From Ectothiorhodospiraceae bacterium (GTDB lineage Bacteria > Pseudomonadota > Gammaproteobacteria > Nitrococcales > Aquisalimonadaceae), in NCBI GenBank assembly GCA_003565775.1, contig PXAT01000147.1:1-34464 (forward strand): a DNA stretch of 34,464 nucleotides, written 5' to 3'. The notes under the pieces are model-generated. The model did no database searches. It had not been told where the DNA came from and saw only the letters and a list, made by a program, of their open reading frames with translations. The translations under genes were made by a program, and so were the position numbers. This document shows, one piece after another, positions 25 through 13,115 of the stretch (position 1 is the stretch's first letter; every line of letters starts with the position of its first letter).

Positions 25-2148
25 ATGGAAGCAGCAAGCGGCAGAGAGACCCCGGGCGAGCAGAACGCGGCGGCGGACGGAATCGATCTCAGGCAACCTG
101 AACTCTATGTCAACCGGCAACTGAGTTTGCTCGAGTTCAACGCCCGGGTGCTGGAGCAGGCGCGCGACCCGGCGATGCCCTTGCTGGAACGCCTGCGCTT
201 CCTCTGTATTTCGAGCACCAATCTCGACGAGTTCTTCGAAATCCGGGTCGCCGGTTTGAAGCAGGTCTACGAACTCGGGTCGACCCAGACCGATGCCGAC
301 AATCGCACGCCGCAGGAGGTTCTGCGCGCGATAAGCGCCCGTGCACACGAGCTGGTCGATCTGCAGTATCGGGTCCTGAACGAGGAACTGACACCGGCCC
401 TGGCGGAACAGGGGATTCGCTTTATCCGTCGCGGCGACTGGACCGAGGCACAGCGCGAGTGGGTGCGCAGTTTCTTCGAGGATTCACTGCTGCCGGTGCT
501 GAGCCCGCTGGGCCTGGATCCGGCACATCCGTTCCCGCGAATCCTCAACAAGAGTCTCAACTTCATCGTCAGCCTCGACGGCAAGGACGCCTTCGGTCGC
601 AACAGCGGCATGGCCGTGGTCCAGGCGCCGCGCGCCCTGCCCCGTCTGATCCGGCTGCCTGCCGAAGTTTCGGAAAGCGAGCATGAATTCGTGTTCCTGT
701 CCTCGATCATTCACGCCTGCGTGGACGATCTGTTCACCGGCATGCAGGTCAACGGTTGCTATCAGTTCCGAGTGACGCGCAACAGTGATCTCTATGTCGA
801 CGAGGAGGAAGTCGACGATCTGCTGGTGGCGATGGAAGGCGAACTGCAGTCACGCCGTTACGGCGATGCGGTTCGCTTGGAGGTCGCGGCGAACTGCCCG
901 ACCAAACTGGCTCGCTTCCTGCTCGACGAGTTCGAGCTGGAGGAAGAAGATCTCTACCAGGTGGATGGTCCGGTCAACCTGAACCGCCTGATGGCGGTGG
1001 TCGACGGCACCGATCGGCCGAGTCTCGGCTTTCCGGGATTCACTCCCGGCATTCCGGCGGACATCGCCCGCAGCAGCAGCATCTTCAAATTACTTCGGGC
1101 TCAGGATGTGCTGCTGCACCATCCGTTCCAGTCCTTCGCGCCGGTAATCGATTTTCTGCGCCAGGCGGCGAAAGATTCGAAGGTGCTGGCCATCAAGCAG
1201 ACCCTGTATCGCACGGGGCCGGACTCGGCCATCGTCGACGCCCTGGTGGTGGCAGCGCGGGCCGGGAAGGAAGTCACGGTGGTCATCGAGTTGCGGGCGC
1301 GCTTCGACGAAGAAGACAACATCAAGCTGGCCAACCGGCTGCAGGATGCCGGCGCCCACGTGGTGTATGGCGTGGTCGGCCACAAGACCCATGCGAAAAT
1401 GGTGCTGGTCGTGCGGCGCGAGGATCAGACACTGCGCAATTACGTCCATCTCGGTACCGGTAACTATCACGCGCGTACTGCACGCCTTTATACCGACTAC
1501 GGACTCATGACCAGTGACCCGGCCATCGGCGCCGACATGCACAAGATCTTTCAGCAGCTCACCAGCCTGGGCAAGGTCTCGCGTCTGAACAAACTGCTGG
1601 AATCGCCGTTCACCCTGTATGACGGCCTGATGCGCATGATCGAGGACGAGGCCGAGCATGCGGCGAACGGCCATCCGGCTCGCATCATCATCAAGGTCAA
1701 CTCCCTGGTGGAACCCCGTTTCATTCGTGCCCTGTATGCGGCCTCCCAGGCCGGCGTGCAGATCGACCTGATCGTGCGCGGCATGTGTTGTCTGCGTCCC
1801 GGGGTAGTCGGCGTCTCGGAAAACATCCGTGTGCGCTCGATCATCGGCCGGTTCCTGGAACACACGCGTGTCTATTACTTCGCCAACAAGGGCAAACCGC
1901 GCCTTTACCTGAGCAGCGCCGACTGCATGGAGCGCAATTTCTTCCGACGAGTGGAAACCGGCTTCCCGATCGATCAGCCCCCCCTGCAACAACAGGTACT
2001 CAACGACCTGGAAGCCTACTTGCGGGACACTGCGCTGGCCTGGCTCATGGCCGAGGATGGCAGCTACCGCCGCGCAGAACCGGATGACGACGCCGAAGCG
2101 TTCTCGTCGCAGGCAGCACTGCTGGAACGGCTTGCCGAACGCGCCTGA
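25..2148 (+). CDS. ppk1: Polyphosphate kinase PPK1
   Basis: This enzyme reversibly transfers the gamma-phosphate of ATP onto a growing inorganic polyphosphate chain. The 707-residue product has the full PPK1 layout: an N-terminal helical domain (about residues 27-130, with RQLSLLEFN and STNLDEFFEIR), a middle domain, and two phospholipase D-like C-terminal domains. The predicted autophosphorylated histidine is H456 in GHKTHAK; the second conserved histidine is H613 in EHTRVYYF, followed by LYLSSADCMERN. Length matches the family. The ATG has only a modest purine-rich stretch upstream (AGGCGG near 11-16). The gene faces the ppx gene ending at 11083, with two metal-resistance cassettes in between. 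The family and complete active site are seen directly; a role in metal tolerance is inference only. Confidence 0.97.
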   Translation: MEAASGRETPGEQNAAADGIDLRQPELYVNRQLSLLEFNARVLEQARDPAMPLLERLRFLCISSTNLDEFFEIRVAGLKQVYELGSTQTDADNRTPQEVLRAISARAHELVDLQYRVLNEELTPALAEQGIRFIRRGDWTEAQREWVRSFFEDSLLPVLSPLGLDPAHPFPRILNKSLNFIVSLDGKDAFGRNSGMAVVQAPRALPRLIRLPAEVSESEHEFVFLSSIIHACVDDLFTGMQVNGCYQFRVTRNSDLYVDEEEVDDLLVAMEGELQSRRYGDAVRLEVAANCPTKLARFLLDEFELEEEDLYQVDGPVNLNRLMAVVDGTDRPSLGFPGFTPGIPADIARSSSIFKLLRAQDVLLHHPFQSFAPVIDFLRQAAKDSKVLAIKQTLYRTGPDSAIVDALVVAARAGKEVTVVIELRARFDEEDNIKLANRLQDAGAHVVYGVVGHKTHAKMVLVVRREDQTLRNYVHLGTGNYHARTARLYTDYGLMTSDPAIGADMHKIFQQLTSLGKVSRLNKLLESPFTLYDGLMRMIEDEAEHAANGHPARIIIKVNSLVEPRFIRALYAASQAGVQIDLIVRGMCCLRPGVVGVSENIRVRSIIGRFLEHTRVYYFANKGKPRLYLSSADCMERNFFRRVETGFPIDQPPLQQQVLNDLEAYLRDTALAWLMAEDGSYRRAEPDDDAEAFSSQAALLERLAERA

Positions 2149-2193
2149 GCACGGAGCCGCGAACGCACCGGCAGGAACCGGGAGCGAGCGGTA

Positions 2194-2221
2194 GCGTGGG
2201 TCAGGCGAGGCGGACCCACGC
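2194..2221. repeat. Perfect 9-bp-arm hairpin repeat (GTAG-GTG family)
   Basis: Arms GCGTGGGTC (2194-2202) and GACCCACGC (2213-2221) pair perfectly around a 10-nt loop. The 186-bp gap 2149-2334 between ppk and the next gene holds this element and no convincing gene. There is no T-run after it, so it is not a standard intrinsic terminator. A related hairpin with the same flanks (GTAG before it, CGCGG then GTT after it) lies at 34356-34380, which suggests a dispersed repeat family. Confidence 0.75.
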
Positions 2222-2334
2222 GGGGTTGGCTCTGAAACAATGCCAGCGGCTGGCCTCGAACAGCAGCGCAGCGTGCGTTCACAGCCGGCGAATAAGCCCT
2301 GCTCGCGACATGACGGTTTACGAGGAGTGCATCC

Positions 2335-3246
2335 ATGCGAACTCTTGCAACCTGTATCACCACCCTGCTCATCGGCCTGACCCTCACGGCCCAGGCAGAC
2401 GATCTCCCCCATCGCGACGACTTCACGATGAATGCCATCGGCGGCGGGGACTTCCGCGCCTATGTCATGGATCATGTCGCGGAAGACGACGGCTGGGCGC
2501 AGGCCATGCGCACTCTGGGCGTGCTGCACAATCACATGCACGAAATGATGACCCAGTTCGCCCACCACGCCATGGAGGAGACCGACCAGGGCGAACGGGT
2601 ACCCGGGTTCGAGCAGCGGATCTCCGGTGGCGAGTGGAGCGATTATCGCGCAGCGCTTGAGGAGAACGCTGATACCGGCTCCTGGCCGGACATGGTACAG
2701 ATCACCGAAATCATGCATGACCGCGTCCATCACATGATGGTCAGCGCCGTATTCTACGATCACGCCTCGCGCCGGCGTGACGCGGATCTTGAAGGCGACT
2801 ATCTGGACGGACGGGCACCGCACCCACAGCGGGACACGCTGCCCGAGGCGGCATCGCTGAAGGTGGAGTTCCCCGCGCCGGATGCGTTCCGTGAACGGGT
2901 CTGGCGTGACCCGATTGACGGTGAGCGCTGGCATGCGGCCTTGCAGAAAGTCACCGTCTTCGAGGTTCTGCTGCAGGACCTGATGACCCAGTTCGCCCAG
3001 TACGGCATGGCCAAACTGGACAGTGCCTGCCGTCCACCGGAGGGGGCTTCGCGGGTTTCCGGCGAGGACTGGTCGGCTTATGCCGACCGTGTTTCCGCCT
3101 GCGAGGAAACGGAATGGCAGCATCTGGTGAGGATCACCGGCCTCGCGCATGACCGGGTGCAGCACATGGCCCTGGCCTTGCTTCGCTACGATGCCGAACG
3201 CCATGACCGGGAGACGCCGGAGGCCATGGACCCGACAGGACAGTGA
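2335..3246 (+). CDS. Unknown periplasmic protein with duplicated His/Met-containing domain, coupled to chrA
   Basis: I do not recognise this 303-residue protein. It begins with a signal peptide (1-21, predicted cleavage after AQA), so it should be periplasmic. Residues 54-145 and 199-290 are two copies of one domain: both have W, then MTQFA, then R-x-SG-x-x-WS-x-Y, then W and IT-x(2-3)-HDRV-x-HM. Copy 1 is rich in His and Met (HNHMHEMM at 65-72, HHAM at 77-80, HDRVHHMM at 128-135), as in metal-binding proteins; copy 2 has lost several of these residues. The start has a strong GAGGAG ribosome-binding site 7 nt upstream. Its stop overlaps the GTG start of chrA by 4 bp, so the two are probably translated together. 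A role as metal- or oxyanion-handling partner of ChrA is inference. Confidence 0.9.
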   Translation: MRTLATCITTLLIGLTLTAQADDLPHRDDFTMNAIGGGDFRAYVMDHVAEDDGWAQAMRTLGVLHNHMHEMMTQFAHHAMEETDQGERVPGFEQRISGGEWSDYRAALEENADTGSWPDMVQITEIMHDRVHHMMVSAVFYDHASRRRDADLEGDYLDGRAPHPQRDTLPEAASLKVEFPAPDAFRERVWRDPIDGERWHAALQKVTVFEVLLQDLMTQFAQYGMAKLDSACRPPEGASRVSGEDWSAYADRVSACEETEWQHLVRITGLAHDRVQHMALALLRYDAERHDRETPEAMDPTGQ

Positions 3247-4427
3247 GCCGCGACAACGCCGCCGATGGCGGTTGGCGTGAGGTCTTCTCCGCCTTCCTGA
3301 AACTGGGCCTGACCTCGTTCGGTGGGCCGGTGGCTCACCTGGCCTTTTTCCAGACCGTGTTCGTCCGCGAACGCCAGTGGCTGGACAGCCGGGCCTATGC
3401 CGAACTGGTCGCCCTCTGTCAGTTCCTGCCCGGCCCGGCCAGCAGCCAGGTCGGTATCGCCATCGGCCTGCATCGGGCAGGGTTGAAAGGCGCACTGGCG
3501 GCCTGGGTCGCCTTCACTACGCCGTCGGCAATCATCATGATCATCGCCGGAATGACGCTCGCCGGCACCGACCTCAGTGATCAGACAGGCGTCATCCAGG
3601 GCCTGAAGGCAGCGGCTGTCGGGGTCGTTGCCTGGGCGCTCTGGGGCATGAGTCGCAGCCTGACGCCGGACGGCCCGCGCCTGTTAATCGCCGCCCTCGC
3701 CTGCGCCATGGCAATTCTGATCCCGACCATTGCCGGCCAACTCGGTGGTCTGCTTGCCGGCGCCGTTCTGGCCCGCTGGCTGGTGCCGGAGGCCGAAGCC
3801 GGCACCGGTGGCCGGCTGCAAATCGCCATCGGACGGCGGACAGGCCTGATCGCCGGTCTGCTGTTCGTATCGGGACTGATCGGCCTGCCGTTGCTGGCCA
3901 GCCTCGGCAACCACACGGCCCTGACCATCGTCGATTCGATGTACCGGGCCGGCGCGCTGGTCTTCGGTGGCGGCCATGTGGTGCTGCCTTTGCTGCACGC
4001 CGAGACGGTGCAGCCGGGTCTGATTCCGTCGGACACCTTTCTCGCCGGCTACGGCCTGGCACAGGCCATGCCCGGTCCGCTGTTCTCGTTCGCGGGGCTG
4101 ATCGGCAGCAGCGCAGGTGGTGTGGGACTCGGTCTGCTCGCCGTCGCCGCGATCTTTCTGCCGGGCAGTCTGCTGGTGCTGGCGATCCTGCCGGTCTGGG
4201 GGCGACTGCGTCAGAATCAACGCGTGCGACGCGTGCTGGGGGGCGTGAATGCCGCCGTGGTCGGCATTCTGGCCGCCGCGCTCTACGACCCGGTGATCAC
4301 CGCCGGCATAGAGCACTGGCTGCATGTGGTTGTTGCCCTGGCCGTGGTGGGCGCGCTGGCCTGGGGACGCGTGCCGGTCTGGCTGTTGATCGTGCTTGCT
4401 GCGCTGGCCGGTCTGGTACTCCTCTGA
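3243..4427 (+). CDS. chrA: Chromate transporter ChrA (two-domain CHR family)
   Basis: ChrA is an inner-membrane transporter that exports chromate. The 394-residue product has the two homologous halves of long CHR proteins. The N-terminal half carries LTSFGGPVAHLAFF (about 23-36) and FLPGPASSQVGIAIG (61-75); the C-terminal half carries the matching VFGGGHVVLPLL (240-251) and AQAMPGPLFSFAGLIG (273-288). Many hydrophobic segments span the rest. Translation starts at GTG, within GTGA that overlaps the stop of the upstream gene, so coupling to that unknown periplasmic protein is likely. The gene ends 40 bp from the convergent cusA end, with no clear terminator between them. Substrate specificity beyond the family (chromate, possibly sulfate-linked) cannot be read from sequence. 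Confidence 0.95.
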   Translation: MSRDNAADGGWREVFSAFLKLGLTSFGGPVAHLAFFQTVFVRERQWLDSRAYAELVALCQFLPGPASSQVGIAIGLHRAGLKGALAAWVAFTTPSAIIMIIAGMTLAGTDLSDQTGVIQGLKAAAVGVVAWALWGMSRSLTPDGPRLLIAALACAMAILIPTIAGQLGGLLAGAVLARWLVPEAEAGTGGRLQIAIGRRTGLIAGLLFVSGLIGLPLLASLGNHTALTIVDSMYRAGALVFGGGHVVLPLLHAETVQPGLIPSDTFLAGYGLAQAMPGPLFSFAGLIGSSAGGVGLGLLAVAAIFLPGSLLVLAILPVWGRLRQNQRVRRVLGGVNAAVVGILAAALYDPVITAGIEHWLHVVVALAVVGALAWGRVPVWLLIVLAALAGLVLL

Positions 4428-4467
4428 GACTTCGATGATCAACCCGGAAAGCGGGCGCGAATCCATG

Positions 4468-7400
4468 TCACGGCGACAACGCCCGGCGCTTCCATAACCA
4501 GTAAAGCACCGGGACCAGCAGCAGGGACACCAGCGGCGCCGTGATCATGCCGCCGACCATCGGTGCCGCGACCCGCTGCATGGCCTCGGCCCCGAGTCCG
4601 TCGGCAAACAGCAGCGGACTCAGGCCCAGCACCACGGTCATGGCGGTCATGGCCTTGGGTCGGATGCGCATCACTGCGCCGTCCATGATCGCCGCCCGCA
4701 ATTCCGCGCGGCTTGTCGGTTCCGCTTGCGCCACCGCATTGCGGATGTACATCAGCATGACCACGGCGAATTCGGCGGCGAGCCCCAGCAGCAGAATGAA
4801 CCCGGCAGCCACCGCCACCGAGACGTTCAGCCCCATCAGATAGAGGATCCAGACACCGCCGACTGCGGCAAACGGCAGGGAACCGATCAGCATCAGTGCC
4901 TCGGCAGCACTGCGGAAACACAGATAGAGCAGGATGAAAATCAGGATCAGGGTGACCGGAACCACCATGGATAACCGCTCCCGGGCCCGTTCCAGATGTT
5001 CGTACTGGCCGGACCAGGTCAGCGAGTAACCGGCCGGCAGATTCACCTGTTCGCGCACGGCCTCCCTTGCGGCAGCCACGTAGGACCCGAGATCCCGACC
5101 GCGGACGTCCAGCGTCACCAGGCCGTTCAGGCGCGCGTTCTCGGTCCGGATCATGGCCGGTCCGTCGGTGATCTCGACTCGCGCCAGGGCATCCAGCGGC
5201 AGATGGTTGCCATCGGCCGTAACCACGGGCAATTCCCGCAGGCGCTCGATGGAATCGCGCCAGTCCTGGGGATAACGCAGGCTGACCGGGTAGCGCTCCA
5301 GACCTTCCACAGTCTCGGTGATATCCATGCCGCCGACGGCGGTCTGGATCACTCTCTGGATGTCGTCGATGCCGAGACCATGACGGGCCGCAGCGCGCCG
5401 GTCTATATCGATCTCGATGTAGCGGCCGGTACCCGTGCGCTCGGCAAAGGCCGATGCGGTGCCGGGCAGGTCCGTCAGCACCCGCTCGATGTCGCGACCG
5501 ATACGCTCGATTTCAGCGAGATCCGGTCCCGCGATCTTCACGCCGACCGGTGAGCGGACCCCGGTGGAGAGCATGTCGATGCGGGTCTTGATCGGCGGCA
5601 CCCAGACATTCGACGCACCGGTAATCTGCACCGCCTCGTCCAGTTCGCGGATCAGATCATCTTTGGTCAGACCCTCGCGCCATTGATCGCGGGGCTTGAA
5701 CCGGATCACGGTCTCGAGCATGCCCAGCGGTGCGGGATCGGTGGCCGTCTCGGCGCGCCCCGCCTTGCCGAACACCTGCTTCACTTCGGGCACGGTCATG
5801 ATCATGCGGTCGGTCTGCTGCAGGAACTCGCGAACCTTGCCGATGGACGCGCCGGGATTCAGCGTCGGCATGTACATCAGGTCACCCTCGTCCATGTCCG
5901 GCATGAATTCGGTCCCCAGACGGCTTGCCGGATAGAGCATGCTGACGGCGAGCAACAGCGCCGCCAGCAAGGTCAGCCAGGGATGCCGCAGCAGGACATC
6001 CAGCGTCGGGCGGTACAGGACGATCAGGCCGCGGCTCAGCGGATGGGAGGCTTCGGGCAGAATACGGCCACGTACCAGATAGCCCATCAGCACCGGGACC
6101 AGAGTGATACCGAGCCCCGCCGCCACGGCCATGGCATAGGTACCGGTGAAGGCCAGCGGGTGAAACAGCCGACCCTCCTGCCCTTCCAGGGTGAACAGGG
6201 GCAGGAAGCTGACCACGATGATCAGCAGGGCAAAGAACAGCGGTCGCCCGGTTTCCTTGGCGGCGACGGCCACCGTGGTCCAGCGATCCTCGTCGGGTGG
6301 TGCGCGTTCCAGGCGCTTGTGCAGGTTTTCCACCATGACAATGGCGGCGTCCACCATGGCACCGATGGTGACCGCAATACCGCCCAGGGACATGATGTTG
6401 GCGTCGATACCCTGCTGCTGCATGATTAGCAGCGCCGCCATGATGCCGATGGGCAGACTGACAATGGCGACCAGTGCCGAACGCAGATGCAGCAGGAATA
6501 CGGCGCAGACCAGCGCGATGATCAGAAACTCCTGCACCAGCTTCCCGGACAGGTTGCGCACCGAGCCCTGAATCAGCTCGGAACGGTCGTAGGTCTCCAC
6601 GACCTCCACGCCCTCGGGCAGGCCGGGCTTGAGTTCCTCCAGTCGCTGTTTGACCCGCTCGATAGTGGCCAGCGCGTTTTCGCCATGGCGCATGACCACG
6701 AAGCCGCCCACCACCTCGCCTTCACCGTCCAGTTCGGCGATGCCGCGGCGCGCCCTCGGCCCGGTGCGGATGTCGGCAACGTTCTCCAGCAGAACCGGTG
6801 TGCCGTTGTTGCTGCGGCCCAAGGGGATGGCGCGCAGATCCTCGATACCGCTCAGGTAGCCGCGGGAGCGCACCATGTACTCGGCCTCGGCCATCTCCAC
6901 CACCGAGCCACCGGCTTCCTGGTTAGCGCCCTGAATCGCGCGACGGACCTGATCCAGCGTCAGGTCGTAGGCACGGGCCCGGTCCGGGTCGAGCTGCACC
7001 TGGTACTGCCGCACCATTCCGCCCAGCGGGGCGACCTCGGCCACACCTTCCACCGATTGCAGTTCGAAACGCAGGAACCAGTCCTGCAGCGAACGAAGTT
7101 GCCCCAGGTCGTGTCGGCCGCTGCGGTCCACCAGCGCGTACTGGTAGACCCAGCCAACCCCGGTCGCGTCGGGTCCCAGTGCCGGTCGGGCCTGGGCGGG
7201 CAGATTCGGCGCAACCTGATTCAGGTATTCCAGCACTCTGGCGCGCGCCCAGTACGGGTCGGTGCCGTCGTCGAACAGCACATAGACGAAGGAATCGCCG
7301 AACATGGAAAAGCCCCGCACGTCGCGGGCATTCGGCACCGACAGCAGGGCTGTCGTCAGCGGATAGGTGACCTGGTCTTCGACCACCTGGGGTGCCTGGC

Positions 7401-7563
7401 CGGCAAAGCTTGTGTGGACGATAACCTGCACGTCGGAGAGATCCGGGATGGCGTCCAGCGGTGTCTGCCGCAGGCTGAACACCCCCCAGACCACGAACAC
7501 CGCGGTCAGCAGCAGGACCAGTAGCCGGTTATCCAGCGACCACTGCACGATACGATCAATCAT
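4468..7563 (-). CDS. cusA: CusA-type heavy-metal RND efflux pump (HME4 class, Cu(I)/Ag(I))
   Basis: This is the inner-membrane proton-driven pump of a tripartite efflux system. The 1031-residue protein starts MIDRIVQWSL and has the full RND layout: TM1 (about 14-30), a large periplasmic loop, a TM cluster (about 345-540), a second loop and final TMs. The signature GAMVDAAIVMVEN (401-413) places it in the HME4 group, known for Cu(I)/Ag(I) export; D405 and E412 fall at the family's proton-relay positions. Met-rich stretches such as DLMYMPT resemble the CusA methionine relay. I chose the ATG at 7563 because it matches the family N-terminus; the open frame continues 42 codons upstream inside cusB. 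The start overlaps the cusB stop by 8 bp. It is the last gene of the cus operon. Confidence 0.96.
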   Translation of the reverse strand: MIDRIVQWSLDNRLLVLLLTAVFVVWGVFSLRQTPLDAIPDLSDVQVIVHTSFAGQAPQVVEDQVTYPLTTALLSVPNARDVRGFSMFGDSFVYVLFDDGTDPYWARARVLEYLNQVAPNLPAQARPALGPDATGVGWVYQYALVDRSGRHDLGQLRSLQDWFLRFELQSVEGVAEVAPLGGMVRQYQVQLDPDRARAYDLTLDQVRRAIQGANQEAGGSVVEMAEAEYMVRSRGYLSGIEDLRAIPLGRSNNGTPVLLENVADIRTGPRARRGIAELDGEGEVVGGFVVMRHGENALATIERVKQRLEELKPGLPEGVEVVETYDRSELIQGSVRNLSGKLVQEFLIIALVCAVFLLHLRSALVAIVSLPIGIMAALLIMQQQGIDANIMSLGGIAVTIGAMVDAAIVMVENLHKRLERAPPDEDRWTTVAVAAKETGRPLFFALLIIVVSFLPLFTLEGQEGRLFHPLAFTGTYAMAVAAGLGITLVPVLMGYLVRGRILPEASHPLSRGLIVLYRPTLDVLLRHPWLTLLAALLLAVSMLYPASRLGTEFMPDMDEGDLMYMPTLNPGASIGKVREFLQQTDRMIMTVPEVKQVFGKAGRAETATDPAPLGMLETVIRFKPRDQWREGLTKDDLIRELDEAVQITGASNVWVPPIKTRIDMLSTGVRSPVGVKIAGPDLAEIERIGRDIERVLTDLPGTASAFAERTGTGRYIEIDIDRRAAARHGLGIDDIQRVIQTAVGGMDITETVEGLERYPVSLRYPQDWRDSIERLRELPVVTADGNHLPLDALARVEITDGPAMIRTENARLNGLVTLDVRGRDLGSYVAAAREAVREQVNLPAGYSLTWSGQYEHLERARERLSMVVPVTLILIFILLYLCFRSAAEALMLIGSLPFAAVGGVWILYLMGLNVSVAVAAGFILLLGLAAEFAVVMLMYIRNAVAQAEPTSRAELRAAIMDGAVMRIRPKAMTAMTVVLGLSPLLFADGLGAEAMQRVAAPMVGGMITAPLVSLLLVPVLYWLWKRRALSP

Positions 7564-9292
7564 GCGCGTGGTCCCCGTGGTCATGGTCCGGCAGCACCTC
7601 GATGGCGGTGATTTCGTAGCCGAAGGGCTCCGCCTCGCCGGCGCGGAAGCGGATCCGCATGCCTTCCTCCACCTGCTCCAGGTCCACATCCTCGGCGACC
7701 AGGAAATTCATGGTCATCGCCGCCATGTCCAGATCGGGAATCGGGCCGTGCGAGATGTTCATCTCCCGGTTTTCCCAGTTCACCCGGTTGACCTTGGCCT
7801 CGGCCCAGGCGTCGTCAGCGGTTGGCCCGCCGTTGTCGTCAGGCACTTCGATGGCGACCACCCGGTAGACGCCCGCCTCGGGCCTGGTCATGCGAAAGCG
7901 GACCTCGGCCCCGGGCGTGATGCCCTCGAGTGACAGATCGTCGGCCAGCTCGAAGTCCATGGTCATTTCCGGCCAGTCCAGTTCGGGAATGGGCGCATGG
8001 CTGAGATTGATGGTCCCGGCATCGACATCGATCGCGTTGACGACGCCCTCGGCAGAAATCTCCCGCTCGTCCTCGTCGGCTGTCGGCTCGTCCAGGCGTC
8101 CGAGCTCGGCCGTGACGCTGGATTCGGAATCGATCAGGAACTGACCCGAGGTGACGACCCGCTCGCCATCCTCCAGACCCTTGAGGATTTCCAGTCTGTC
8201 GCCCGCCCGGCGCCCGACCCGGACCTCTCTCGCCTGGAAGTTGCCCTCGCCGCGGTCGACGATGACCCGGCTCTGTCGTCCGGTACGAATGACGGCCTCG
8301 GCCGGCACATGCACGGCATCGGTGATGGTTTCCGCATCGAGTCGCACGCGTGCATACATGCCCGGTTTCAGGGCGCGGTCAGGATTGTCGAGCAGCAGGC
8401 GGGCGCGCACCGTGCGAGTGGGCGTGGCCAGCGCCGGATAGATGAAATCGACGCGGGACTGAAGGCTCTCACCGGGTCGGGATGACAGGTGAACCTCTGC
8501 CCGCTGCCCGATGCTGATCCCGTCAGACTGCTTTTCGAAGAGATCGACCAGCATCCAGACCCGGGACAGGTCGGCGATGGTCATCAGCGAGTCGACCGGG
8601 GTGACAAACATGCCTTCGCGGATCTGCAGTTCCTGCACGATGCCATCGTGCGCGGCGTGGACCGGGACCCGGTGTCGGACGTTGCCGGTACGCTCCACCT
8701 CGCGGATATCTTGGCTCCGCATACCCAGCGCCCGCAGGCGTTCCCGTGCCGGCTCGAGACCTCCACCGCGGCGCACCGACTGCAGCAACTCTTCCTGAGC
8801 ATTGACCAGCGTCGGGGAATACAGCCTGAACAACAGTTGCCCCGCCTCGACCTGCTCTCCGATGGTGCGCACCTGCAATTCCTCGACCCAGCCCTCGGTG
8901 CGCATGTGCACATGGGAAAGGCCCGCCTCGTCGTAGTCGACAACGCCGAAGGCGTCCACCGGACGCACCAGCTCACCGCGTTCCGCGGTCGCCGAGCGGA
9001 GATTCATGTTCTGCAGCACGGCGCTGCGAATGCGGACCGTGCCAGGCTCCTTCTCGTCCCCGTTGTCATCCGCATAGACCGGGATGTAGTCCATGCCCAT
9101 GTGGTCCTGCCGGGGTTCCGGCGAGGTGATTGAGGAGTCCATGGGGTTGCGGTAATAGAGAATCTCCCGGTCCGCATCGACGGCTTCGGCCTGGTCGTGC
9201 TCCATGCCATGGAGCAGATACCAGTAGGTCGCGGCGGCGCCTGTCACACCGCCGAGAAGCAGCATAAGGAGGGCAAATAACAGCTTTTTCAT
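7556..9292 (-). CDS. cusB: CusB-type membrane fusion protein with two C-terminal CusF-like domains
   Basis: This periplasmic adaptor joins the pump to the outer-membrane channel. The 578-residue order is: N-terminal signal/anchor (1-26), a CusB-type metal-binding segment (YYRNPMD at 46-52 and HMGMDYIP at 64-71), barrel-sandwich and beta-barrel regions (about 110-400), then two CusF-like domains (about 415-484 and 499-566) and a His-rich tail (HDHGDHAHD). CusF-like domain 1 keeps all known CusF Cu(I)/Ag(I)-contacting residues: H432, W440, M443, M445. Domain 2 has H515, M526 and M528 but M523 in place of the tryptophan. The ATG at 9292 overlaps the cusC stop by 4 bp. A fused CusF implies a built-in periplasmic metallochaperone; the tandem arrangement is the unusual part. 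The family call is firm, the metal preference inferred. Confidence 0.95.
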   Translation of the reverse strand: MKKLLFALLMLLLGGVTGAAATYWYLLHGMEHDQAEAVDADREILYYRNPMDSSITSPEPRQDHMGMDYIPVYADDNGDEKEPGTVRIRSAVLQNMNLRSATAERGELVRPVDAFGVVDYDEAGLSHVHMRTEGWVEELQVRTIGEQVEAGQLLFRLYSPTLVNAQEELLQSVRRGGGLEPARERLRALGMRSQDIREVERTGNVRHRVPVHAAHDGIVQELQIREGMFVTPVDSLMTIADLSRVWMLVDLFEKQSDGISIGQRAEVHLSSRPGESLQSRVDFIYPALATPTRTVRARLLLDNPDRALKPGMYARVRLDAETITDAVHVPAEAVIRTGRQSRVIVDRGEGNFQAREVRVGRRAGDRLEILKGLEDGERVVTSGQFLIDSESSVTAELGRLDEPTADEDEREISAEGVVNAIDVDAGTINLSHAPIPELDWPEMTMDFELADDLSLEGITPGAEVRFRMTRPEAGVYRVVAIEVPDDNGGPTADDAWAEAKVNRVNWENREMNISHGPIPDLDMAAMTMNFLVAEDVDLEQVEEGMRIRFRAGEAEPFGYEITAIEVLPDHDHGDHAHD

Positions 9293-10542
9293 TGTGCATC
9301 CCCCCACAGGTAGAGCAGTTCCGCCTGCGTCTGAAGGCGCTCGGTGGCGACCCGCAGAGCATCCAGCCGTGTCTGCACGTCCGTGATCCGGGCACGAACC
9401 AGATCGGAGAATTCGATGGTGCCGGCCCGATAAGCCTGCTCTGCAGCCTCGGCGTTGGCGTGTGCGGACGGCAGCAGGCGCTCGCTGAAACGTGCGTCGC
9501 GCTCACCCAGACGTCGCCAGCGTTGCTCGACAGCAACGCGCCTTGCTTCCAGGTCGCGCGCCTTTTCGTTCAGGGCGAACAGGGCGGCATCGCGCCGGTG
9601 CCGACTGGCGGCAACTTCGCTGTCCTGGCGGCGGCTGTCGAACAGCGGCAGGTCCAGCATGACCATCGCCGAGAGCCGGTCCACGCCCCCCATGCCCCGG
9701 GCACCCGGGGCACGGCCATAGCCAAGCTGGACACTCCATTCAGGTCGATAGCCTTGATGTGCCAGGTCCACGCCGTATCTGGCGCTGTCAATCAGTGCTT
9801 CCTGCGCTCGCACCAGCGGATGGGATGTCACGTCGTCCTCCCCGGGCGATGGCAGCGATGGCGGCGTGGTATCCAGCTCCCGACCGGCCGCTTCCCGACC
9901 GACCCAGCGCGCCAGCTCTGCACGAGCGGCGGACTCCTCGGCGTAGGTCGCACTGATCCGGTCCTGCAGCCGATCGTGCTCCAGCTCCATTTCCAGCACA
10001 GACTGGGATGAGCCAAGACCACTCGCGAACTCCCGCTCGCTGACATCACGCAGATCGGCGAGCAGGTCCAGCTTGTCGTCGAGCAGGCCCAGCAACTGAC
10101 TTTGGTAACGCGCTTCCAGATAGGCTCGCCGCACGCCGAGCCGGGCCTGGCGCACGGCGTCATCGGCGCGCGCGCCTTCGGCGTCGGCCCGCGTCGTCTC
10201 ACGGGCGCTGGCAAGCTGGCGGGAATCACCGCGGGGAAACGTCTGACGCACGCCGACGGCCAACTGCGTCATCGGCGTTCGATCGAGCCGGAGGCCGTCA
10301 TCGACCGGCAGGTTCATCGCTTCGCCGACGATAACCGGGTTGGGCAACCTGGCTGCAGCCTCCGCATCGTCACGGCTGGCGGCGGCGGTCGCCTGATAAC
10401 GCGCCTGGGTCGGGTCACGCTCGACGGCGAGCGTTTCGGCTTCCTGCAGGGACAGCGCGTCAGCCGCAGCCAGCCAGGACGGAGTCATGACCAGGAACAA
10501 GAGGACCAGGCAAGGCCAGGCCCGCAACAGCTTGGAAGACAT
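9289..10542 (-). CDS. cusC: TolC-family outer-membrane efflux channel (CusC/CzcC-like)
   Basis: This is the outer-membrane channel of the tripartite metal pump. The 417-residue protein has a signal peptide (1-27, cleavage near LAAA) and the long heptad-rich helices of the outer-membrane efflux protein family in two repeats (about 30-215 and 230-410). Unlike E. coli CusC, there is no cysteine at the cleavage region, so it should not be a lipoprotein. An AGAGGA ribosome-binding site sits about 9 nt upstream of the ATG. The gene ends inside the cusB start (4-bp overlap) and begins 96 bp after the small Cys/Met protein gene. The CusC assignment rests on the CusA/CusB neighbours; by sequence alone only the TolC superfamily is certain. 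Confidence 0.92.
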   Translation of the reverse strand: MSSKLLRAWPCLVLLFLVMTPSWLAAADALSLQEAETLAVERDPTQARYQATAAASRDDAEAAARLPNPVIVGEAMNLPVDDGLRLDRTPMTQLAVGVRQTFPRGDSRQLASARETTRADAEGARADDAVRQARLGVRRAYLEARYQSQLLGLLDDKLDLLADLRDVSEREFASGLGSSQSVLEMELEHDRLQDRISATYAEESAARAELARWVGREAAGRELDTTPPSLPSPGEDDVTSHPLVRAQEALIDSARYGVDLAHQGYRPEWSVQLGYGRAPGARGMGGVDRLSAMVMLDLPLFDSRRQDSEVAASRHRRDAALFALNEKARDLEARRVAVEQRWRRLGERDARFSERLLPSAHANAEAAEQAYRAGTIEFSDLVRARITDVQTRLDALRVATERLQTQAELLYLWGDAQ

Positions 10543-10638
10543 TGAGTGTTTCCTCTCGGCGAAACCGGGCTTCCGGCTAGCGCCTCAATAGCATCAGCTC
10601 ATCAGGTGGCAACCGGACCACCCGGACACACTGAACCG

Positions 10639-10953
10639 TCAGAGGAAAACAGGTTTGGGGGGACGTAACTCGTGGCGCGGATATCCGGATTTATTCGGGA
10701 ATCCTGCCGAACTCGGGGAGTGATGCAGCGCGCTGGGGACGGCGCCGCTCGGACTGACGATACCGGCAATGCAATTGACACAATCCGGGCAGGCTCTGGT
10801 GTCCTGTCCCATGTCGCAATCCATGCCCATCCCGCTCATGGCCGCCGCCTCCGCGGCACCGGTATCGGGTGTCTCGGTCGCATGCAGGGGCGCCGCGAGT
10901 AAAGCCACGATGAGTGCGATGCAGACCAGGCCATGGGAGCGCAAGAGCTTCAT
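10639..10953 (-). CDS. Small secreted Cys/Met-rich protein heading the cus operon
   Basis: This 104-residue protein has a signal peptide (1-25, cleavage near LHA). Its mature part has a methionine cluster (M39, M42, M44, M48), a cysteine run (C46, then C55, C58 and C61 as CPDCVNC) and paired histidines (H77, H78), all potential Cu(I)/Ag(I) ligands. It ends in a proline-rich tail (RPPKPVFL). Small proteins of this style (DUF2946/CopL-like) are common beside copper-resistance genes; I cannot assign an exact family. The ribosome-binding site is weak (GAAAG next to the ATG). It is the first gene of the minus-strand cus operon and lies 129 bp downstream of ppx. A role as periplasmic metal buffer or regulator is inference. 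Confidence 0.8.
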   Translation of the reverse strand: MKLLRSHGLVCIALIVALLAAPLHATETPDTGAAEAAAMSGMGMDCDMGQDTRACPDCVNCIAGIVSPSGAVPSALHHSPSSAGFPNKSGYPRHELRPPKPVFL

Positions 10954-10959
10954 CTTTCG

Positions 10960-10988
10960 AGCCTAATCGGCGCTCCCGAGGGCGTCAA
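10960..10988 (-). promoter_or_regulatory. Candidate sigma70-like promoter of the cus operon
   Basis: On the minus strand, TTGACG (10988-10983) is followed after 17 bp by TAGGCT (10965-10960). The -35 box is good and the -10 box weak. The -10 ends only 6 nt before the ATG of the small protein, so a transcript from here would be almost leaderless. The spacer contains G/C-rich partial symmetry but no recognisable CueR site. No regulator gene is adjacent. Confidence 0.3.
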
Positions 10989-11082
10989 GCGGGCCGTTCC
11001 ATCGCCCGACGGGCATCCTGCCAGGGACGGACCCGCAGACTTGGCTGTCCCGAGCCGACTTCCGGGCTTACGAAAATGCCGA

Positions 11083-12618
11083 CTAGGTGTGATCTCCGTT
11101 CGGGGTTTCGAAATCGAACGCGATATCGAGCCCGGCCAGATAGCGGGCCTCTTCCTCCAGGTCAGCCCGCACCAGGGGATGTTTCCGGTACCAGTCGCGA
11201 CCGACCTCCAGCGACAAGCGATCCCCGGACGCGAGTTGCAGCGACATCGCAGGGACACCACCGCTCGGTCTTCCACGATGCAACACGACGGCCAGGCGCA
11301 ACAGCACGGCGAGGCGGGAGACCGTCTGCTGCAGGGAATCCGGCAACTCCTTGAACAGGCTGCGGTTGAGCTTGCGCCGGTGGGTCCGGATCAGGGTCGA
11401 CAGGATCAGCTGGTCGCGCTGGGAAAAACCGGCCATGTCGGCATGCCGCACGATGTATTCGCCGTGCTTGTGATACTGGCTATGCGCAATGTCGAGTCCG
11501 ATCTCGTGGAGTTGCGCCGCCCAGCTCAGCCATTGCTCGGCATCCTGATCCAGCGACCAGTCGTCACCGAGCTGTGCCAGGAAATCCAGGGCCGTGGCCC
11601 GGACGTTGGCTGCCTGCTCGGCGTCCACGTGATAGCGCGTCGCCAGCGCCGCGACGGTCCGGTCACGGACATCCTCGGCGGTGAAACGGCCCAGCAGGTC
11701 ATACAACAGGCCCTCGCGCAAGGCACCCTCCGAGACCTCCATCGCCTCGATCTGCAAGCTGCGAAAAACACCCTCGAGCACCAGCAGGCCGCCGATGAAA
11801 ACCGGAGCCCGGTCGCCGCCCAGCCCCTTGAGGTCCAGGCCCTTCAATGAACCCGCCTTGAGCACCGCCTTGACCGTGCGCTCCAGAGCCTCGGCGGTGA
11901 TCGGGCCTTCGCTCCAGCCCTGCGCCTGAATCACGGCCTGCACCGCCCGAATGGTGCCGGAGGTACCGACCGCCTGCTCCCAGCCGCCACCACGAAACGC
12001 CCGTTCGACCGGCTCGAGCTCCTGCTGGATAAGCTGACGGGCGCCGCCGACCGATGACTTGCCGTACTTGTCGTTGCCGAAAAACCGCTGACTGATCGAG
12101 ACACAGCCCATCTCCAGGCTGTCCATCAGTCGTGGCTCATGCCGTGCCCCCACGATCAGCTCGGTGCTGCCGCCGCCGATATCCACCACCAGCCGCCGCA
12201 GGCCGTCGTCGGCCATCCCGTCGGCAACACCCAGGTAGACCAGACGTGCTTCCTCGATCCCGGAGACCACCTCGATCGGGTGTCCAAGCGCGCCTTCCGC
12301 CCCGCGCATGAACTCCCGCGCATTGACGGCATTACGCAGGGTATTGGTGCCGACAGCACGCACGGCACCGCGCGGCAACTCACGGACCCGCTGACCGAAC
12401 CGTTCGAGACACCCCATGGCGCGTTCGATGGCGTCGGTCGACAACTCACCGTCCTGATCCAGACCGCCGCCCAGCCGGACCATTTCCTTTATCCGGTCGA
12501 GGACCTTGAGCGAGCCATGTTGCTGGCGCCCAACCACCATGTGGAAGCTGTTGGAACCCAGATCGATCGCCGCGACGATCTCCGGCGCCTGGCGACGCTT
12601 GCGTGGCCCTCGGGCCAT
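11083..12618 (-). CDS. ppx: Exopolyphosphatase, Ppx/GppA family
   Basis: This enzyme removes terminal phosphates from polyphosphate, and family members can also hydrolyse pppGpp. The 511-residue protein has an ASKHA-type fold: phosphate-binding loop AAIDLGSNSFHMVVG (16-30) and the second loop LVVDIGGGSTELIVG, followed by an HD-like C-terminal region (around AAQLHEIGLDIAHSQYHKHG). Length fits Ppx rather than short GppA-only forms. The chosen ATG overlaps the sixA stop by one base (TGATG); a TTG one codon earlier is the alternative. The gene forms an operon with sixA and faces ppk across the metal cassettes. Ppx versus GppA activity cannot be separated by eye, but the distant ppk gene favours Ppx. 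Confidence 0.94.
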   Translation of the reverse strand: MARGPRKRRQAPEIVAAIDLGSNSFHMVVGRQQHGSLKVLDRIKEMVRLGGGLDQDGELSTDAIERAMGCLERFGQRVRELPRGAVRAVGTNTLRNAVNAREFMRGAEGALGHPIEVVSGIEEARLVYLGVADGMADDGLRRLVVDIGGGSTELIVGARHEPRLMDSLEMGCVSISQRFFGNDKYGKSSVGGARQLIQQELEPVERAFRGGGWEQAVGTSGTIRAVQAVIQAQGWSEGPITAEALERTVKAVLKAGSLKGLDLKGLGGDRAPVFIGGLLVLEGVFRSLQIEAMEVSEGALREGLLYDLLGRFTAEDVRDRTVAALATRYHVDAEQAANVRATALDFLAQLGDDWSLDQDAEQWLSWAAQLHEIGLDIAHSQYHKHGEYIVRHADMAGFSQRDQLILSTLIRTHRRKLNRSLFKELPDSLQQTVSRLAVLLRLAVVLHRGRPSGGVPAMSLQLASGDRLSLEVGRDWYRKHPLVRADLEEEARYLAGLDIAFDFETPNGDHT

Positions 12619-13115
12619 CAATTGCCGGGCTTGCGGGTCAGGTGGGATGGCGAGAGCAGCCAGCGCAGTTCGGCGTTGCCGGGGCTGGCTCGCTGCGGGA
12701 ACTCGAGCATGGCTGCACCGGCCTTGCGGAAAACGAGAAAGCCACGTGGATCATTGCAGAGGGCGAGCCCGGACAGATGGTTGAGGAGCGGTTCATGCCC
12801 GACCAGAACGGCCAGTTCGGACTCGTCGTCAGCCAGCCACTCGAGCAGCGTTTTCGGGTCTGCAGCCGGCTCCAGCAACGCGGTTTCCTCGCGCCGCGGC
12901 ACATGCAGATACTCATCGAGAATGTCCGCGGTCTGCACCGCACGCAACAGCGGGCTGTTGGCCAGGAGATCCACGGAACCGAGTATGGTGCTCAGACCGC
13001 GGGCTGCCTTTTCGGTCTTCTTCCGCCCCTTCTCGGTGAGCGCGCGGGCCACATCGGCCCGGTCATCCGACGGTTCGTCGGCCGGTCCGTGGCGAAACAG
13101 CACGATCCGCTGCAT
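12618..13115 (-). CDS. sixA: Phosphohistidine phosphatase SixA
   Basis: SixA is a small cytoplasmic histidine phosphatase that removes phosphate from phosphohistidine in signalling or phosphotransferase proteins. The 165-residue protein starts MQRIVLFRHG, with the catalytic R8-H9-G10 motif, keeps the branch arginine in NSPLLRAVQTA, and has the second catalytic histidine in VLVGHEPLL. Length matches SixA (about 160 residues). A strong GGAGGAAGG ribosome-binding site precedes the ATG. It is translationally coupled to ppx (TGATG) and is divergent from typA. Confidence 0.92.
   Translation of the reverse strand: MQRIVLFRHGPADEPSDDRADVARALTEKGRKKTEKAARGLSTILGSVDLLANSPLLRAVQTADILDEYLHVPRREETALLEPAADPKTLLEWLADDESELAVLVGHEPLLNHLSGLALCNDPRGFLVFRKAGAAMLEFPQRASPGNAELRWLLSPSHLTRKPGN

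Follow-up and report, generated by a model that had tools for sequence, protein, structure and literature searches.

The window analysed here, a stretch of 34,464 nucleotides from an Ectothiorhodospiraceae bacterium (contig PXAT01000147.1), carries the gene for a duplicated His/Met protein (HM) that ends inside the start codon of a chromate transporter gene (chrA). Is HM a periplasmic partner of ChrA, as the original prediction proposed, or a protein with a role of its own? A start-stop overlap with chrA alone does not make a protein a ChrA partner. HM has a rigidly kept histidine cluster and occurs in four phyla, with many of its carriers coming from soda lakes, whose high pH and carbonate alter metal chemistry. 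Should HM bind metal, it would be a new metal-binding bundle of the periplasm; should it act with ChrA in this lineage, chromate efflux would gain a periplasmic component. The features of the gene are as follows.

2335..3246, + strand: HM, gene for the 303-residue duplicated His/Met protein (open reading frame; relatives in four phyla)
2335..2397, + strand: putative signal peptide, residues 1-21 (by inspection: MRTLATCITTLLIGLTLTAQA then DD)
2452..2769, + strand: HM copy 1, about residues 40-145, with H65, H67, M68, H69, M72, E125, H128, H132, H133, and M135
2887..3201, + strand: HM copy 2, about residues 185-289, with D/E210 and H272 at the places of H65 and H128, and with conserved C232 and C256

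Duplication, conservation and predicted fold of HM

Copies 1 and 2 are 33% identical over 103 columns in a two-sequence BLASTP search (E = 1e-18); their local score of 158 was equalled by none of 2,000 shuffles (mean 29.3, sd 5.2, maximum 63), and the two halves of the protein match each other in a profile-profile comparison with E = 3.1e-27. Identity, shuffle test and profile agree that the protein consists of two copies of one domain, as had been proposed, and the motifs MTQFA, SGxxWSxY, and HDRVxHM that had been named as shared are found in both. The bounds first drawn, 54-145 and 199-290, enclose a real repeat that is better placed at about 40-145 and 185-289. HM is apparently exported: a putative signal peptide is recognizable by inspection, the complete relatives have N-terminal starts resembling it, and the L005 relative carries a lipobox-like LAISSC at its N-terminus. 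Conservation of C232 (16 of 16 rows) and C256 (15 of 16) suggests a disulfide between them, in keeping with export.

Conservation was counted over 17 aligned rows, five of them partial, with rows lacking a column omitted and with L050 and L053 standing for two pieces of one genome. On the first long helix of copy 1, H65, M68, and H69 are each kept in 15 of 15 rows and M72 in 16 of 16 (i, i+3, i+4, i+7); on the second, E125 is kept in 14 of 15 (Asp in the other), H128 in 15 of 15, and both H132 and M135 in 14 of 15 (i, i+3, i+7, i+10). With this spacing, the conserved residues would lie on one face of each predicted helix, where H65/H69 and H128/H132 form two HxxxH pairs kept in 14-15 of 15 rows. 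H133 is kept in 13 of 15 rows; H67 is kept in 14 of 15, and its loss in one row fits H65/H69 as the working pair.

Copy 2 is far less constant at the corresponding places. The place of H65 is taken by D/E210 in 14 of 16 rows (Ala in 2/16) and that of H69 by a variable residue; H272 and H276, at the places of H128 and H132, are found in 11/15 and 8/15 rows, respectively, and Glu at 269 in only 2/15. The HNHMH cluster never occurs in copy 2, yet many copy 2 sequences nonetheless read HDRI(H)HMM. All three chrA-coupled rows lack H276 (Gln, Asp, and Ser instead) and two lack H272 (Arg in both), but H276 is also missing from the uncoupled rows L009, L011, L048, and L051, and H272 from L012 and L019; the asymmetry is therefore general for HNHMH and patchy otherwise. 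The description of copy 2 as poor in His and Met accordingly holds for the window protein (9 His and 9 Met in residues 54-145 vs. 5 His and 3 Met in 199-290) and for the HNHMH cluster among the relatives, and extends only in part to the rest.

Searches of sequence families place HM in an uncharacterised family for which no description was found, in agreement with the original prediction, and no paper on it was found in searches of an open-access library. The window protein reached no Pfam cut-off (best row Defensin propeptide, lying on the signal peptide, E = 0.021, 15.5 of 23.6 bits; Death row 12.9 of 22.6 bits) and matched no NCBIfam family. Death was also the best Pfam row for 12 HM members (E = 0.0042, 2/12) and for 23 single repeats (E = 0.011, 1/23); Defensin propeptide, Death and the remaining weak rows in Pfam were all set aside as chance. 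Against PDB sequences the whole-HM profile gave no rows, and the repeat profile a single ESAT-6-like row (E = 0.18) taken as noise.

AlphaFold predicts both the window protein (pLDDT 82.7, 12-row alignment) and the L008 relative (pLDDT 88.2, 11 rows) to be all-helical, each copy contributing two of the four long helices; in the window protein the predicted helices 53-82 and 116-145 hold the conserved His, Met, and Glu residues. Searched against the PDB, the two models gave best Foldseek E-values of 0.67 and 0.2, nothing above helical-bundle background, and best VIA-align Z-scores of 7.8 and 6.3, which by the tool's own reading may reflect only the common helical-bundle arrangement. Several of the weak structural rows are diiron or heme bundles, among them YtfE (7bhb_B, Z 6.2, rmsd 3.8, 117 aligned) and BfrB (5d8s_D, Z 5.5, rmsd 4.1, 130 aligned), both within that helical background, and we take them as a hint and no more. 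PhoU was rejected: it is the top Foldseek row of the first model, but with E = 0.67, TM 0.27/0.37, and rmsd 16; for the second model it is absent from the best 50 Foldseek matches, and a PhoU-like chain appears only at VIA row 44 (Z 4.4). The missing clear fold match is no proof that the HM fold is new.

The overlap with chrA and the distribution of HM

The surroundings of HM in the window are these.

25..2148, + strand: ppk, polyphosphate kinase, left boundary of the insertion (Pfam)
3243..3246, + strand: GTGA overlap of the chrA GTG start and the HM TGA stop (sequence)
3243..4427, + strand: chrA, two-domain chromate transporter (TIGR00937, 295 bits; PF02417 twice)
4468..10542, - strand: Cus-type efflux cluster (Pfam), with an RND pump (4468-7689), a CusB-like protein with two CusF domains (7556-9307), and an outer-membrane factor (9289-10542)
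11083..12621, - strand: ppx, right boundary of the insertion (Pfam)

The 394-residue chrA frame matches TIGR00937 well above the cut-off of 171.7 bits and along the whole model (1-368 of 368). Its start at 3243 is the first ATG, GTG, or TTG in the frame, only 12 further codons are open upstream (406 vs. 394 residues), and the TIGR00937 match begins at residue 18; the overlap, which is as originally described, therefore hardly depends on the choice of start. HM and chrA overlap in all three coupled genomes, those of the window, Methylonatrum kenyense (L002), and CSBr16_16 (L004). From such an overlap a fixed ratio of HM to ChrA may be inferred.

Since ppk and ppx directly adjoin, tail to tail, in six of the nine relatives searched (G001, G002, G003, G006, G008, and G012), the HM-chrA pair is an insertion between them; for G005 and G007 the 1.5-kb flank showed no ppx, and the G011 contig stops inside ppk. 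M. kenyense and CSBr16_16 also carry HM and chrA between ppk and ppx, with ppx directly after chrA, and among the three coupled genomes the Cus cluster separates chrA from ppx in the window only. The CusF domains of the CusB-like protein lie in its C-terminal part (PF11604, two stretches), and the ppk-ppx interval (25-13115) is a local site where metal genes gather. The gap between ppk and HM, by the chosen starts, is 186 bases in the window and under 40 in L002 and L004. It holds a palindrome, GTGGGTC...GACCCAC (2196-2219), that might be a repeat-type intergenic element and is below the length limit of a search for inverted repeats of at least 12 in 2140-2340, which found none. A search of 2100-4500 for a sigma-70-like site was uninformative (0 found, 0.1 expected). 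The coupling of HM to chrA is real but local, seen in three genomes of a single genus and in each of them inside the ppk-ppx interval.

HM itself is spread more widely. A search of an 84,980-species genome collection for close relatives by short peptide patterns yielded 11, and the HM profile matched 5 of the family's 14 genomes, 6 of the 54 in the order (one being the weak L018), 2 of 369 in a sample of the class, and 7 of 395 in a sample of Gemmatimonadota (one being the short G530 piece); the repeat profile matched 3 of 288 in a Verrucomicrobia-side sample. Leaving out the smaller pieces in G530 and G980 and counting once four genomes that appear under two handles, there are 17 carriers (6 gammaproteobacterial, 1 Myxococcota, 8 Gemmatimonadota, 2 Verrucomicrobia side), which include genes not intact as assembled (G428/L010 frameshifted, G429/L011 without its N-terminus, G637 in two contig-end pieces, and G801 chiefly the C-terminal half). 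Eight of 11 named records bear CSSed or CSBr codes, which the available part of one report uses for soda-lake genomes (PMC6704655). In a tree of 14 rows, with three partial rows omitted, the three coupled rows form one clade (support 100/99) and the gammaproteobacterial L019 pairs with the verrucomicrobial L012 (100/100; 65% identity), which suggests transfer of HM between phyla.

Three weak genome rows were dismissed after their frames were read: L018 (E = 3.8e-4), L072 (E = 0.0025), and L073 (E = 0.0076), the last of which reads as an arginine-decarboxylase-like protein. When the repeat profile was used to look for single-copy relatives in 321 genomes from the class and 288 from the Verrucomicrobia side, it returned only double-copy proteins, the truncated G980 piece, L072, and L073. 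Viral contigs gave five pattern stretches, none confirmed, and no relative was found in plasmids with the window protein as the only query.

The link to chrA is absent from most of these carriers. Ten of the 17 (G424, G425, G427, G428, G429, G430, G772, G637, G801, and G837) have no PF02417 match in genomes that may be incomplete; in a control, the same search found matches in 9 of 14 genomes, and it is unlikely that all ten misses are assembly gaps. HM overlaps chrA in only 3/17 (the window, M. kenyense as G009, and CSBr16_16 as G010), all of one genus. Elsewhere, the HM relative of G002 shares a contig with a second, more divergent chrA 9 kb away (27% identical to the window chrA and cut by the contig end), G007 and G339 have chrA on a contig other than that of HM, and G423 has two contig-end pieces of chrA. 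Within the family, TIGR00937 is found in 12 of 14 genomes vs. HM in 5; G011, of the same genus (86% complete), has chrA on a 3-kb contig without ppk or HM and no HM match in its genome.

One further case comes from the Verrucomicrobia side, where a truncated N-terminal HM relative in G980 (locus L093, 4171-4524, - strand) and a complete chrA (4717-5949, + strand) are divergent, with about 200 bp between them. This piece has Leu in place of both H65 and H67 and looks like a decaying copy. By a rough estimate, a neighbour of this kind would arise by chance in about one genome per thousand, so we leave room for a loose but real functional link between HM and chrA.

No neighbour common to the HM lineages was found when frames were read and 20 neighbours scanned (3 from the coupled L002); 5 matched no family and the others were diverse. 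The close relatives L009 and L010 both have an amino-acid permease as neighbour. The Gemmatimonadota relative at L007, and this locus only, has a rhodanese-containing regulator of the ArsR type together with an MFS transporter upstream and divergent (2700-4720, - strand); L095 (G339) has a pair of closely similar MerR-like regulator frames, along with a MerT-like frame (571-2552, translations read), some 6-8 kb upstream of its HM relative; and at L012 (4965-6303) a SelR-domain gene of the methionine sulfoxide reductase type and the verrucomicrobial relative are convergent.

Candidate functions

Because more than half of the carriers lack chrA, HM probably has a general role in metal handling, rather than serving the chromate pump as a dedicated partner. 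The reading that we favour, to which we give even weight for and against, is that HM is a stand-alone periplasmic metal-binding protein whose copy 1 carries the site and whose gene was later joined to chrA in one lineage. The two tandem copies, with two long helices each, would fold into one helical body, in which H65 and H69 on one helix would face H128 and H132 on the other, together with E125, M68, M72, and M135. Copy 2 would complete the fold, offering a degenerate partner face (in most relatives, D/E210 and H272) and, probably, a disulfide between C232 and C256. On its pattern of conservation, the histidine cluster probably binds metal; HM would then bind or buffer a soft or borderline transition metal in the envelope, possibly at a dinuclear centre. 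Copper is the metal guessed first, given that the site is surrounded by Met and that Cus genes lie nearby; iron or zinc are possible. The gathering of metal-efflux genes at the ppk-ppx site lends mild support to a metal role. The gene would have come to stand before chrA, inside the ppk-ppx interval, in a single genus of the window's family, and chrA is as a result probably translated from the message that also carries HM; HM and ChrA may serve one stress response without needing contact, and joint expression in one lineage is most likely what the coupling gives. Against the metal reading, lineages share no common neighbour and only the window's genome, of the three coupled, has the Cus cluster; nor does any family, PDB sequence or convincing PDB fold support a metal site (Pfam, NCBIfam, PDB, Foldseek, VIA). 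The conserved His, Met, Trp, and Tyr could also be packing residues.

The main rival is a dinuclear redox or scavenging protein, ferritin-like or hemerythrin-like, that arose from a duplicated helical hairpin and acts on peroxide, O2, NO, or an oxyanion. The ferritin motif is E, ExxH, E, ExxH, and in HM a pseudo-twofold set can be drawn from H65 and E125xxH128 in copy 1 and from D/E210 (14/16) and H272 (11/15) in copy 2. Toluene monooxygenase hydroxylase, methane monooxygenase, bacterioferritin, YtfE, NrdF, and CmlI are among the weak structural rows, and one of the 23 repeats has an EncFtn-like row (E = 0.28). Such an enzyme is nonetheless unlikely: a full diiron ligand set is not present in both halves, with copy 2 lacking E269 in 13 of 15 rows, H272 in 4 of 15, and an acidic residue at 210 in the two rows with Ala, and the structural rows stay within helical-bundle background (Foldseek E at least 0.2 and TM below 0.4 among the matches listed; VIA Z at most 7.8).

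A dedicated ChrA partner, taking up or sensing chromium species at the outer face of ChrA and held at a fixed ratio by translational coupling, is improbable, and as the main reading it is rejected on the distribution of HM. The overlap in 3/3 coupled genomes and the proximity in G980 and G002 speak for it, and exported ChrA accessory proteins have a precedent in ChrL and ChrK, as described in the accessible part of the source (PMC2751784). Against them stand the 10/17 carriers without a PF02417 match, the separate contigs of G007 and G339, the family counts (12/14 vs. 5/14), and the truncation of the G980 copy with its lost histidines. HM thus does not occur only with ChrA, and outside the genus its relatives are found in unrelated surroundings, which is largely what the original prediction had named as refuting it. 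Of the proposed partnership this leaves the overlap and the proximity, and not the dedication.

Quite improbable is a broader proposal, that HM defines a new duplicated periplasmic class with a dinuclear His/Glu(/Met) centre, acting on a metal or oxyanion in the envelope, spread over four phyla and joined to chromate efflux at least twice, in which external capture or reduction of chromium and export by ChrA would act together; the count of at least two joinings comes from the coupling in one genus and the divergent neighbour in the Verrucomicrobia-side genome. That HM is a non-metal envelope protein of alkaliphiles (chaperone or packing), with His and Met in structural roles, would suit the absence of a metal family match and the soda-lake codes on 8/11 named carriers, but the near-invariance of H65, H69, and H128, at places where copy 2 varies, makes this very doubtful. 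A periplasmic bis-His heme-binding four-helix bundle, suggested by His at i and i+4 on two long helices and by de novo heme maquettes among the weak structural rows, is the most remote reading, as those scores are equally weak and the Glu and Met around the site suit metal ions as well.

Comparison with known systems

In Arthrobacter sp. FB24, the exported or membrane-anchored proteins ChrL and ChrK are encoded near chrA, and deletion lowers chromate resistance; ChrL is an LppY/LpqO-type lipoprotein and ChrK a YVTN/WD40 beta-propeller (PMC2751784, in its available part). The original prediction knew of no described periplasmic ChrA partner like HM, and as far as that part of the report goes this stands, the accessories it describes belonging to other families. 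HM resembles ChrL and ChrK in its apparent export and in the position of its gene near chrA, but is predicted to be all-helical, is duplicated and His/Met-rich, and is carried by 10/17 genomes without a ChrA match. HM gave no LppY/LpqO row in Pfam or NCBIfam, libraries that may hold no such model.

With YtfE, bacterioferritin, and the bacterial multicomponent monooxygenases, HM would share a helical bundle with paired His and Glu on long helices; it differs from these diiron bundles in having no sequence match, no significant fold match, and incomplete ligands in copy 2. CusF and the CnrX/ZraP/CpxP proteins are periplasmic His/Met metal proteins, of which CusF is a beta-barrel. Neither type appeared for HM among Pfam rows at E up to 10; the likeness lies in apparent export, in potential His and Met ligands, and, in the window, in metal efflux genes near HM.
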